This document shows, one piece after another, positions 21,790 to 62,350 of a stretch of 64,000 nt of DNA. The DNA is from Bacteroidota bacterium (GTDB lineage Bacteria > Bacteroidota > Bacteroidia > Flavobacteriales_D > Crocinitomicaceae): NCBI GenBank assembly GCA_030148165.1, contig JASBTZ010000003.1, positions 310,001-374,000 of the forward strand. Reading direction: 5' to 3'. A program made the translations under genes and the position numbers. The first letter of the stretch is position 1, and each line of letters begins with the position of its first letter. The notes beneath the pieces are model-generated. The model saw nothing but the letters and a program-made list of their open reading frames with translations. It did no database searches and was not told the origin of the DNA.

Positions 21790-21861
21790 CAGCCCATAGG
21801 AGAATCGAACTCCTGTTTCCAGGATGAAAACCTGGCGTCCTAACCACTAGACGAATGGGCC
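21790..21861 (-). tRNA. tRNA-Glu (anticodon TTC)
   Basis: Minus strand GGCCCATTCGTCTAGTGGTTAGGACGCCAGGTTTTCATCCTGGAAACAGGAGTTCGATTCTCCTATGGGCTG; cloverleaf, anticodon loop TTTTCAT. CCA is not encoded. Confidence 0.97.
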
Positions 21862-21873
21862 AAAAAAATTTAG

Positions 21874-21945
21874 CAGCCCATAGGAGAATCGAACTCCTGT
21901 TTCCAGGATGAAAACCTGGCGTCCTAACCACTAGACGAATGGGCC
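21874..21945 (-). tRNA. tRNA-Glu (anticodon TTC), identical second copy
   Basis: Same 72-nt sequence, 12 nt from the first copy. Confidence 0.97.
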
Positions 21946-29846: not shown

Positions 29847-29871
29847 GTGTTTAATAGTTAATACGATTCAA

Positions 29872-29897
29872 GGCAGACATCTACGTCTGCCTTTTTT
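29872..29897 (+). terminator. Terminator after clpB
   Basis: GGCAGAC-ATCTAC-GTCTGCC-TTTTTT. Confidence 0.9.
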
Positions 29898-29905
29898 GTT
29901 TTTAC

Positions 29906-29913
29906 TATTTTTG
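29906..29913 (+). promoter_or_regulatory. -7 box TATTTTTG, 5 nt before the ATG at 29919
   Basis: TAnnTTTG match. Confidence 0.55.
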
Positions 29914-29918
29914 AACGG

Positions 29919-30434
29919 ATGTTTGGATCGAAAAAAATATTAAATCTATTATTGGTGATAGTTGCCGCTCTGTGTGGATTTTTGGTCTATCGAGTAATTA
30001 CAGGTGATCTATTCCCAATTAAGAACATGATTAATCTTGTTTTCGGATCATTGGTCTTTCTTACACTGCTTACTTATCGGTTTACTCTAGCTATTAAGGA
30101 GAAAGCAGATTTCGTTAATAACTTGTTACTCGTCTTCATAGTCGGTTTCACGACCTTGATGTATCTTCAACGGAGTACCGTCGATTCCCTGTGGGGTCTT
30201 ACGATTTCACTGTTCGTTGTACAGGAGGCCCGATTACTTTTTTCTTTAATTCACGACAACAAATCGACTTCCATTTTGACCAAATGGCTAATTCTACTAT
30301 CAACTTTGTATTTGGCTACTCTGCTTATTTTCAAGCTTGGTGAACCGATTCTCTATACAATCGGAATATACAGTTTCGGTCTGTTAAGCCTTGCAGTGCT
30401 GATCTCAACGCTCATGCGACAAAAGACTACTTAA
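29919..30434 (+). CDS. Integral membrane protein, hypothetical
   Basis: Multi-TM ORF with clear promoter. Confidence 0.65.
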   Translation: MFGSKKILNLLLVIVAALCGFLVYRVITGDLFPIKNMINLVFGSLVFLTLLTYRFTLAIKEKADFVNNLLLVFIVGFTTLMYLQRSTVDSLWGLTISLFVVQEARLLFSLIHDNKSTSILTKWLILLSTLYLATLLIFKLGEPILYTIGIYSFGLLSLAVLISTLMRQKTT

Positions 30435-51067: not shown

Positions 51068-52372
51068 ATGCATCTAAAGAAAAACATGAATATGAAACTA
51101 GTTAAACAATTCAGCCTGATTTTAGGGGTTTTGATGATCTCTTCTGTAGTCATGGCTCAGAAGAAAAACGAGACGAGTGCTGCAGTAGAATACAAAAATA
51201 ACTATCTGAAAGCCTTTATGACTGGTGATATGGACGCGGCTAAGAAAGCATTGCGCTCAGCAAAGGAATTTATTGACCTTGCTGCTGCTCACCCAGAAAC
51301 TCAGGACAGCGAAAAAACGCTTTGGCTCAAGGGAGAGATCTACTCGAGTTATATGACCGTCGGGATTATGAGTCAGGACACGAGTTTTATCAAGGAGGCA
51401 GGTGAAGATGCTATCGATGTTGCAATTGCAGCATTTAAGAAGGGATATCCTAACAGCAAGAAGTACAAAAAGGACTACGAAAACTCTGTCGCGCAAAAAG
51501 CGGGTCAGATGGATCAGTACGCCAATATGATGTACCAGGCTGAAATGTTTGAAGAAGCAGCAGAAATTTATCATACGATGTATCGCTATTTTGATGCAAT
51601 TAACGTATTAGATAGCACTTCCCTATTCAATGCTTCTTTATGCTTTGAAAAAGCTGCACCTAAATATGCCTCTAAACTTGCTGAAGCAACTAATGCTGAA
51701 GACAGCACAATATATGCAGAGGGGTACGAAAGAATGTACACGAAAGCAGCAGAAGGATACAGTAAGTTGGCTGAAGTTGGCTACAAAGGGACATCGAGTG
51801 CGGTCTATGCAGCACGGGCTTATCAGGAGTTAGGAGAATACGACAAAGCTATCGAAGTGATTAATATGGCTCGTAAAAATGATCCAACAGACAAAAGCCT
51901 GTTACTGGAGCTCGTTAATACGAATATAGCCGCTGGAAATGCAGAAGGTGCTGAGAAAGCGCTTACGGATGCCATTGAAGCGGACCCCAATAACAAACAG
52001 TTATTCTATACGATTGGTACGATATACATCGACCTAAAGAAGAATGCAGAGGCACAGGAGTCACTTGAAAAGGCTTTAGCAATCGATCCGGATTACGTAG
52101 ATGCTCAATATCAATTGGGAGCTCACCTGTTTAACTGGGCGAACGACATCATGCTTGAAGCAAACAACCTGAAGATCGGAGATCCACGCTTCAATGAGTT
52201 GAAAGCTCAGAGTGAAGAAAAAATGAATCAAGCGGTTGTGCAGCTGGAAAAATACATCCTGAACGACCCGAACAACAAAGCGATCTTAACTATTTTGTAT
52301 CAGGCGCATCATAAGGCCGGTAATACGGAGAAAGCATTAGAATACAAGAAAAGAGCTGAAGCAGCTGAATAA
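51068..52372 (+). CDS. Secreted TPR-repeat protein (probable start at one of the downstream Met codons)
   Basis: Signal peptide MKLVKQFSLILGVLMISSVVMAQ, TPR repeats. Confidence 0.82.
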   Translation: MHLKKNMNMKLVKQFSLILGVLMISSVVMAQKKNETSAAVEYKNNYLKAFMTGDMDAAKKALRSAKEFIDLAAAHPETQDSEKTLWLKGEIYSSYMTVGIMSQDTSFIKEAGEDAIDVAIAAFKKGYPNSKKYKKDYENSVAQKAGQMDQYANMMYQAEMFEEAAEIYHTMYRYFDAINVLDSTSLFNASLCFEKAAPKYASKLAEATNAEDSTIYAEGYERMYTKAAEGYSKLAEVGYKGTSSAVYAARAYQELGEYDKAIEVINMARKNDPTDKSLLLELVNTNIAAGNAEGAEKALTDAIEADPNNKQLFYTIGTIYIDLKKNAEAQESLEKALAIDPDYVDAQYQLGAHLFNWANDIMLEANNLKIGDPRFNELKAQSEEKMNQAVVQLEKYILNDPNNKAILTILYQAHHKAGNTEKALEYKKRAEAAE

Positions 52373-52392: not shown

Positions 52393-52420
52393 AGGGCATT
52401 TCAAGGAATGCCCTTTTTTT
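52393..52420 (+). terminator. Terminator between TPR gene and rpsA
   Basis: AGGGCATT-TCAAGG-AATGCCCT-TTTTTT. Confidence 0.9.
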
Positions 52421-52430
52421 GTGCTGCTGC

Positions 52431-52459
52431 TTGACAATTAAATAATTTAGCTATCTTTG
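52431..52459 (+). promoter_or_regulatory. rpsA promoter: TTG-N18-TATCTTTG
   Basis: TTG 52431-52433, TATCTTTG 52452-52459. Confidence 0.75.
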
Positions 52460-52463
52460 CAAC

Positions 52464-52573
52464 CCCAAATGTAATTTGGGAACGAGAACTGCTCAACCTA
52501 TTGAAAAGCAGTTATTTATAAACAACTTTCGGAGTAGTATAGGTTTTCCGAAATACAAAACAAACGCCAAATT
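52464..52573 (+). promoter_or_regulatory. Structured rpsA leader: three hairpins with kissing-loop complementarity
   Basis: HP1 52464-52480 (7 bp), HP2 52487-52513 (7 bp, 13-nt loop), HP3 52527-52553 (7 bp, 13-nt loop); loop2 AACCTAT pairs with loop3 ATAGGTT. Confidence 0.7.
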
Positions 52574-54343
52574 ATGGCTAATACAAAAGAAAGAACTCAG
52601 GGAACTGGGGAATTTGACTGGGAAAAGTACGAACAGGATGGTTACTCTGCTCAAGAACGTGACGACCTATCAACGAAGTACGAAGAAACACTTAACTCTG
52701 TAGCAGAAAGAGAAGTAGTAAAAGGAACAGTCGTTTCAATGAACAAGAAGGAAGTTGTAATCAACATCGGATCTAAATCTGAAGGTGTTATTGCAACAAA
52801 TGAATTCCGTTACAATCCGGACCTTAAAGTAGGTGACGAGGTTGATGTTTATGTTGAAACACAAGAAGATAAATACGGACAGCTTGTGATCTCTCACAAA
52901 ATTGCTCGTATGCACTCTGCTTGGGACAAAGTAAATGAAGTCCTTAAGACAGGTGAAGTTATCACAGGACATGTTAAGTGTCGTACAAAAGGTGGATTGA
53001 TTGTAGATGTATTCGGTTTGGAAGCATTCCTACCTGGATCACAGATCGATGTGAAGCCAATTCGCGATTACGACATGTACGTTGGTAAAAACATGGAGTT
53101 CAAGGTAGTGAAGATCAACCAGGAATTTAAGAACGTGGTTGTTTCTCACAAAGCGCTTATCGAAGCAGAACTTGAAGAACAGAAAAAACAAATTATCTCT
53201 GGTCTTGAAAAAGGTCAGGTACTTGAAGGAACAGTTAAGAACATTACTTCTTACGGTGTATTCATCGATCTTGGAGGAGTTGATGGTCTTATCCATATCA
53301 CAGATCTTTCATGGGGACGTGTTAATCACCCGGAAGAGATAGTTGAACTGGATCAAAAACTTAACGTGGTAATTTTAGACTTCGATGATGAGAAGAAAAG
53401 AATTGCTTTGGGTCTGAAACAACTACAAGCGCACCCTTGGGATGCTCTTGATGAAAAGCTTAACGTTGGTGACAAGGTTAAAGGAAAAGTTGTTGTAATG
53501 GCTGACTACGGTGCATTCGTTGAGATTGCTCCGGGTGTTGAAGGATTGATTCACGTATCAGAAATGAGCTGGTCACAGCACCTTCGTTCTGCACAGGACT
53601 TCCTGAATGTAGGCGACGAGGTAGAAGCTGTTATCCTTACATTGGATCGAGAAGAGCGCAAGATGTCTCTTGGTATCAAACAATTGGTTCCGGATCCATG
53701 GGAGGGAATTGAGACCAGATATCCTATCGGATCTCAGCACAGCTCGAAAGTACGTAACTTCACTAACTTCGGTGTTTTTGTAGAATTGGAAGAAGGGATT
53801 GATGGATTGATTCATATCTCTGATCTTTCATGGCAAAAGAAGATCAAGCACCCGTCTGAATTCTGTAAAGTAGGAGACGAATTGGATGTAGTCGTTCTTG
53901 AGATCGACCGTGATAACAGAAGAATTTCTCTTGGACACAAACAATTGGAAGAAAATCCTTGGGATGCTTTCGAAGATACATTCAAAGAAGGTACTACTCA
54001 CCAGGGTACAATCATCGAACAAAAAGACAAATCAGGAATTGTTGCACTTCCTTACGGACTTGAAGCAATCTGTCCTGCACGTCACATGAGAAAAGAAGAC
54101 GGTTCCAACTTGAAAGTTGAAGACGCTGCTGATTTCGTTGTAATTGAATTCAACAAAGACGCACGTAAGATCGTTGTTTCTCATACACGTACGTTCGAAG
54201 AAGGTGACGACAGAAAGCCGAGCAAAAAGCAAGGTTCTAAAGGTGTAGATCAGGTTAACAAAAGCGCAGAGAAATCAACGCTTGGTGACCTTGACGCACT
54301 GGCAGAACTTAAAGAGAAAATGGACAAGGGAGACGACGAGTAA
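52574..54343 (+). CDS. rpsA: 30S ribosomal protein S1
   Basis: About six S1 domains (GVFIDLGGVDGLIHITDLSW, GAFVEIAPGVEGLIHVSEMSW etc.). Confidence 0.95.
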   Translation: MANTKERTQGTGEFDWEKYEQDGYSAQERDDLSTKYEETLNSVAEREVVKGTVVSMNKKEVVINIGSKSEGVIATNEFRYNPDLKVGDEVDVYVETQEDKYGQLVISHKIARMHSAWDKVNEVLKTGEVITGHVKCRTKGGLIVDVFGLEAFLPGSQIDVKPIRDYDMYVGKNMEFKVVKINQEFKNVVVSHKALIEAELEEQKKQIISGLEKGQVLEGTVKNITSYGVFIDLGGVDGLIHITDLSWGRVNHPEEIVELDQKLNVVILDFDDEKKRIALGLKQLQAHPWDALDEKLNVGDKVKGKVVVMADYGAFVEIAPGVEGLIHVSEMSWSQHLRSAQDFLNVGDEVEAVILTLDREERKMSLGIKQLVPDPWEGIETRYPIGSQHSSKVRNFTNFGVFVELEEGIDGLIHISDLSWQKKIKHPSEFCKVGDELDVVVLEIDRDNRRISLGHKQLEENPWDAFEDTFKEGTTHQGTIIEQKDKSGIVALPYGLEAICPARHMRKEDGSNLKVEDAADFVVIEFNKDARKIVVSHTRTFEEGDDRKPSKKQGSKGVDQVNKSAEKSTLGDLDALAELKEKMDKGDDE

Positions 54344-61942: not shown

Positions 61943-62342
61943 GGGGTCGTTTTTGGATTTGACAGCGTTGAAAGTTGTTAAGTGTAAGCATGTCGAGCCA
62001 TGTGGTGAGTCTCGTTAAACTCTGGTCACAAACGATAATTGACAATACGTCATTTAACCTCGCAGCTTAATAAACCGAGTGTTTATAGGCCTAATTCCAG
62101 CTGAAGTATAGTAAGCGGAACGAGTCTCCTCTCCTGTTCTCTACCTGTTAGAATGGGAATCAGAGGGATCATCTTATCAGGTTAGCATCTGCGATGCTTC
62201 TAAGCAGGTGTGAAGCTTTAGAAGCTAAGCACAGTTTTGGGTGTCTTTGTCCGGGCCTGTGTCGAAAACCAATCAGAGACTAAGCATGTAGAAGCCTTAC
62301 CGGCTCAGCGTTTGGACGAGGGTTCGAATCCCTCCGACTCCA
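61943..62342 (+). ncRNA. ssrA: Transfer-messenger RNA (tmRNA)
   Basis: 5' GGGGTCGTTTTTGGATTTGACAGCG, 3' GGTTCGAATCCCTCCGACTCCA; 7-bp acceptor pairing; tag ORF ending GCA GCT TAA at 62062-62070. Confidence 0.96.
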
Positions 62343-62350
62343 CTCTGATC

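Follow-up and report, generated by a model that had tools for sequence, protein, structure and literature searches.

The gene for ribosomal protein S1 (rpsA) in the window, the whole 64,000-nucleotide stretch of Bacteroidota DNA analysed here, is preceded by an RNA leader in which two hairpins, HP2 and HP3, are predicted to be joined by a 7-bp helix between their loops. Judged by comparison with relatives, the shape of this element is maintained by evolution while its letters change. We consider the leader to be probably a cis-acting translational operator of rpsA, to which free S1 would bind as a repressor. The features of the site are as follows.

52394-52420, plus strand: putative intrinsic terminator of the upstream TPR-protein gene, GGGCATT/AATGCCC followed by T7 (from sequence; function inferred).
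52431-52459, plus strand: predicted Bacteroidota-type promoter, with TTGACA at 52431-52436 and the -7 box TATCTTTG at 52452-52459 (from sequence).
52464-52480, plus strand: HP1, CCCAAAT (52464-52470), GTA loop, ATTTGGG (52474-52480), 7 bp, near the expected 5' end (from sequence and an arm-swap test).
52487-52513, plus strand: HP2, AACTGCT (52487-52493), 13-nt loop, AGCAGTT (52507-52513), a 7-bp stem with compensatory changes at 5 of 5 modelled pairs.
52495-52501, plus strand: 5' half of the kissing helix, AACCUAU, 1 nt past the 5' stem of HP2 (from loop-swap tests and partial column counts).
52514-52526, plus strand: linker AUUUAUAAACAAC, A/U-rich, joining HP2 to HP3; relatives have the related UUUAAC(C) (from sequence and comparison).
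52527-52553, plus strand: HP3, TTTCGGA (52527-52533), 13-nt loop, TCCGAAA (52547-52553), a 7-bp stem with compensatory changes at 7 of 7 pairs.
52539-52545, plus strand: 3' half of the kissing helix, AUAGGUU, 1 nt ahead of the 3' stem of HP3 (from loop-swap tests).
52554-52558, plus strand: UACAA pentamer immediately 3' of HP3, invariant in 38 of 38 model matches, though it also served as a search anchor.
52566-52578, plus strand: predicted start-codon mini-hairpin, GCC(A) at 52566-52569 with (U)GGC at 52575-52578, the AUG lying partly in the loop (RNAalifold, RNAfold).
52574-54343, plus strand: rpsA, ribosomal protein S1, 589 aa with six S1 domains (NCBIfam, Pfam).

The coordinates and letters that the first-pass annotation gave for HP1, HP2, HP3 and the 7-nt loop-loop complement are all correct in the window sequence: the three stems are perfect over 7 bp, and AACCTAT at 52495-52501 is the exact reverse complement of ATAGGTT at 52539-52545. 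Its further view, that such a hairpin pair has a low chance of arising at random, is upheld by a scan for two perfect 7-bp hairpins no more than 40 nt apart with 7-nt complementary loops, in which the leader is the one plus-strand site of the window (the minus-strand match being the leader DNA itself read backwards) and 60 first-order random sequences of 64 kb with the window's dinucleotide make-up yield none. The RNA from 52464 to 52573 is more stable than its shuffles (z -2.5). A pseudoknot-blind fold forms a UCAA/UUGA pair within loop 2, a competitor of the kissing helix.

The downstream gene is rpsA, as had been proposed, with 912 bits to NCBIfam NF004953 (cut-off 720) and six Pfam S1 domains. 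Upstream, the TPR-protein gene stops at 52372, ahead of a terminator-like hairpin that bears seven T. TTGACA together with TATCTTTG has the form of a Bacteroidota promoter, and a TAnnTTTG box stands immediately upstream of HP1 or HP2 in nearly all relatives. Transcription of rpsA is expected to start at about 52463-52466, some 4-7 nt past the -7 box. Since the terminator is followed by a Bacteroidota promoter belonging to the S1 gene, rpsA in the window is apparently a separate, monocistronic transcription unit. Elsewhere the window holds a tmRNA gene (61943-62345, plus strand) and two tandem tRNA genes (21790-21945, minus strand).

S1 is present in every genome searched, from genus through family, order and class to phylum, and the regions upstream of the gene were gathered. 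A parser anchored on TACAA found HP3, HP2 and the loop-loop helix in 83 leaders at a joint score of at least 20. The paired loops differ widely in sequence: AACCTAT/ATAGGTT in the window is replaced by ATCTATC/GGTAGAT (L020), GCGGCA/TGCCGC (L032), TTGAACGGG/CCCGTTCAG (L040, with one G-U), TTACAGC/GCTGTAA (L048) and ATTCGACA/TGTCGAAT (L107). Because loop lengths vary, plain MAFFT misplaced the arms of HP2 and HP3, and a covariance model was used instead, seeded with five leaders having HP2, HP3 and the start-codon hairpin, blind to loop-loop pairing and widened in two rounds. Among its 73 matches, 96.1% of cells are paired and both sides change at each of the five HP2 and seven HP3 pairs; cells with double changes number 300 against 80 +/- 14 in shuffles, and the covariation score is 0.709, compared with at most 0.148 when the partners are slid.

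The stems are partly fitted by the covariance model, so the swapping of loops between leaders is the cleaner test. With the 73 leaders aligned without loop pairing, cognate loops score a mean of 14.84 and swapped loops 8.91 (z 20.0); z is 17.5 in a thinned set of 71 leaders with HP2 defined without looking at HP3, and 13.8 in another version, all of these values overstating the number of events, as sequences that share descent are not independent of one another. Loop complementarity is also kept (p 1e-4) in eleven Flavobacteria-like leaders whose HP3 is longer, with pairs such as GGTTTGAA/TTCAAACC, GAGTTTC/GAAACTC and CAAGAAAC/GTTTCTTG. Counted in fixed columns, 60-72% of kissing pairs are paired, an undercount due to shifts of register, for which reason the alignment-free swap test was used. 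G-U pairs fill 59 of 1064 cells, which points to an element acting as RNA, not DNA. HP2, HP3 and the loop-loop helix all covary in relatives, so that the lack of covariation which the first-pass annotation named as grounds for refutation is not seen. The structural half of its reading is thus strongly supported, and by this comparative evidence HP2-HP3 is a kissing-loop structure, i.e., two hairpins in cis whose complementary apical loops are kept by compensatory change.

In the 83 leaders the kissing segment begins a median of 1 nt past the 5' stem of HP2 and ends a median of 1 nt ahead of the 3' stem of HP3, and the distance of TACAA to the start codon has a median of 14 nt. In such an arrangement HP2, the kissing helix and HP3 would be stacked nearly end to end, with the stack ending about 20 nt 5' of the AUG. 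HP1, counted in the first-pass annotation among the three hairpins of the leader, covaries within the window's family (arm-swap test on 21 leaders, z 8.4, p<=5e-5) but falls outside the widely conserved structure: on the sequences compared it is restricted to that family, and in most others the promoter-to-HP2 gap is just 5-20 nt, leaving little space for it.

The description of the remaining leader as single-stranded up to the AUG needs correcting, since HP3 is followed by the invariant UACAA and the AUG lies in a small conserved hairpin, GCC...AUGGC. GCC is found in 52 of 67 motif leaders that start with AUGGC, versus 13 of 57 neighbouring AUGGC open reading frames. Covariation of this hairpin is weak because its pairs hardly vary; the exceptions still pair, by GGC...GCC in L042, a displaced GGC in L046, TTCAGA-ATG-TCTGAA in L088 and ATCTG...CAGAT in L098. 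Longer start-codon hairpins, of which TTCAGA-ATG-TCTGAA is an example, occur in Flavobacteria-like leaders. Two other regulatory devices were rejected or down-weighted: an attenuator, as the pattern of an intrinsic terminator or attenuator (a hairpin and a U-run before the gene) is absent at HP3, which is followed by UACAAAAC instead of a U-run; and a thermometer, as the AUG is not covered by the kissing element.

In the window's genome the covariance model matches the rpsA leader alone. Across 446 genome scans, it gives matches at E<=0.1 in 93 of the 150 order genomes, the window's own family contributing 58 of its 59 listed genomes, and at E<=0.01, under stricter filters, in 31 of the 296 class genomes. 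At all loci returned by the order and class searches the match is adjoined by an S1 gene or its start, and all but one of the context-checked matches at E<1e-3 lie upstream of an S1 gene. Going by these searches, the association is specific to one ribosomal protein gene, rpsA. A 42-bit match in another genome (L257), antisense in an A/T-rich coding region and without UACAA, was set aside as chance, and a second window match of the first model (29870-29955) as a terminator. Parts of the class have S1 without the kissing leader, and the kissing model finds no match in 62 S1 loci from Bacteroidales, families with Shine-Dalgarno (SD)-type leaders and other classes (best E 0.68).

None of the 83 kissing leaders has an SD sequence; an SD-like word is present in 20 of 839 control open reading frames. 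Fourteen rpsA leaders without the kissing element (L080, L081, L086, L096, L100, L134, L137-L141, L214, L218 and L224), which represent eight or more families of the class and three named records, are 27-46 nt long and bear a strong SD such as TAAAAGGAGGACATTAAACTTG or AAAGGAG(GA), in a class where SDs are rare. The rpsA leaders of Bacteroidales (L150-L226) carry a conserved ATAATGTCTAACTTATTAATT 20-80 nt upstream, without HP3; it resembles the UUUAACC linker ahead of HP3 in kissing leaders. In Bacteroidia, SD pairing is normally blocked and yet is used for feedback by bS21 (PMC9976891), which suggests that lineages may have switched between two modes of S1 control, kissing-type and SD-type. 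A wider picture, though doubtful, is that Bacteroidia possess alternative rpsA leaders (SD-free kissing with the AUG mini-hairpin, short with a strong SD of a sort rare in these genomes, and a UGUCUAAC-type in Bacteroidales), and that the kissing complex might structurally stand in for the SD by docking on the 30S platform, enabling S1 to sense its occupancy of ribosomes. That kissing and SD-type leaders exclude each other leads to a direct prediction on SD use in the phylum.

We infer autoregulation by S1 from the exclusive linkage to rpsA, the lack of an SD (0 of 83) and the precedent of E. coli, by analogy with which the binding of S1, its competition with 30S and the repression are all proposed for the window. 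In E. coli, S1 represses rpsA specifically: free S1 competes with 30S-bound S1 at a folded initiation region without a canonical SD, and introduction of a canonical SD abolishes the repression (PMC10931766). Pseudoknots are avidly bound by S1 (PMC7708055), and 30S-bound S1 melts the rpsO pseudoknot (PMC3858243). S1 of Flavobacterium johnsoniae has little effect on the ribosomal protein mRNA rpsU (PMC9976891), so that control by S1 cannot be assumed.

In the proposed mechanism the mRNA would start near HP1, and HP2 and HP3, joined by the 7-bp loop-loop helix, would form a compact, roughly coaxial element of 7+7+7 bp ending about 20 nt 5' of the AUG, at the place of the 30S platform and S1. The initiation region would consist of UACAA, an A-rich spacer and the weak AUG hairpin; as this region has no SD, initiation is proposed to need ribosome-bound S1 to dock on the RNA and open it. 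Once S1 exceeds the 30S subunits, free S1 would occupy the kissing element and the A/U-rich linkers (that between HP2 and HP3, 52514-52526, being a possible S1 contact), docking would be blocked and S1 synthesis would fall. Two points weigh against the operator reading: the usually loose sequence preference of S1, which makes the conservation of shape over sequence puzzling, and the occurrence of S1 without this leader in parts of the class.

The main rival to the S1 operator is a purely enhancing docking element, i.e., a constitutive initiation element whose kissing structure docks on the 30S platform as an SD substitute or standby site and sets or raises S1 translation with no feedback. We think this rather unlikely, even though it would fit the median distance of 14 nt between UACAA and the start, the mutual exclusion with SD-bearing rpsA leaders and the behaviour of tisB mRNA, which requires a pseudoknot for binding of both S1 and 30S (PMC7708055). 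A pure enhancer need not stay at one gene, whereas the checked significant matches lie at rpsA save one chance match. Nearly all analysed ribosomal protein leaders are, to our knowledge, feedback elements, which counts against it as well.

A further alternative keeps the operator and changes the ligand: another ribosomal protein (e.g., uS2, bS21 or bS18) or factor would bind the kissing complex and tune S1. The autoregulation of bS21 through SD and anti-SD in Bacteroidota (PMC9976891) speaks for such control, and the element's place on the platform would presumably be close to bS21, bS18 and uS2; we nevertheless find it distinctly improbable, as rpsA is apparently monocistronic in the window and as, where a leader precedes just one ribosomal protein gene, the product of that gene is regarded as its likely ligand (PMC7247131). 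Still less can be said for an element of mRNA stability or processing, in which rpsA mRNA would be shielded from nucleases by HP1, at its 5' end, together with the compact fold of HP2-HP3. HP1 does start about 4-5 nt past the promoter box and covaries in its family, but the kissing pair is kept where HP1 is absent, in most other families, and UACAA, the spacing and the start-codon hairpin would be left unexplained, so that we rate this explanation very improbable. The arms are also inverted repeats in the DNA, yet a DNA-level feature (repeats for a DNA-binding regulator, or a cruciform) or mere chance is hardly credible, given that complementarity alone, not sequence, is conserved in arms and loops, with those 59 of 1064 cells G-U, and that the loop-swap test and the random-sequence scan exclude chance.

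Ribosomes of Bacteroidota mask their anti-Shine-Dalgarno sequence, which raises the question of how they select start sites and keep S1 in balance. A covarying, S1-gene-specific kissing leader offers a concrete, mutable element with which a possible recognition by S1 of its own mRNA through shape could be addressed. If the S1-operator reading is true, there would be two structurally distinct S1 operators, this leader and the gammaproteobacterial one.

Rfam 15, applied to the window at gathering score and to the leader down to E<=10, gives no family match for the leader; four rows at E<=10 fall far short of their gathering scores, without any of them covering HP2-HP3. At gathering score, no family falls on the leader in 20 relatives, the sole match being Flavo-1 RNA (RF01705) in the Flavobacteriaceae-like L089 (L089:1191-1276), roughly 210 nt 5' of the start codon of rpsA; it lies clear of the kissing leader of L089 and has no match to the window. 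None of 20 new ribosomal leaders, including those of Bacteroidia and Flavobacteria, is for S1 (PMC7247131), rpsA is unmentioned in two later leader surveys, and no description of a kissing rpsA leader was found in open-licence papers. Its kind is known, for on comparative grounds it is a covarying RNA structure in the 5' leader of a ribosomal protein gene, like ribosomal protein leaders in general; the kissing S1 leader itself appears to be undescribed, a distinct variant by virtue of its loop-loop helix.

Like the gammaproteobacterial rpsA operator (E. coli; Boni et al. 2001, reviewed in PMC10931766), the window leader precedes the S1 gene and combines several hairpins, A/U-rich single strands, the lack of a canonical SD and a folded initiation region. 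For the E. coli operator that review describes neither a kissing helix nor UACAA nor a start-codon mini-hairpin, and S1 binding, putative for the window leader, is demonstrated for it. With the leaders of Eckert and Weinberg 2020 (PMC7247131; S4, S15, S16 and L13 of Bacteroidia/Flavobacteria) it shares covariation, a ribosomal protein gene and the phylum; their table has none for S1, and the window leader differs in having the loop-loop helix. The pseudoknots bound by S1 (a SELEX ligand, tisB and rpsO mRNA; PMC7708055, PMC3858243) likewise have loop-paired helices and A/U-rich single strands 5' of the start codon, but are of the H-type or similar, in contrast to the two-hairpin kissing complex of the window, whose S1 binding is putative. 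Finally, rpsU (bS21) of Flavobacterium johnsoniae (PMC9976891) is, like rpsA, a gene of Bacteroidia for a protein of the 30S platform with feedback at translation initiation (putative for rpsA); rpsU uses an extended SD paired to the freed anti-SD, whereas rpsA in the window has a folded leader in place of an SD.
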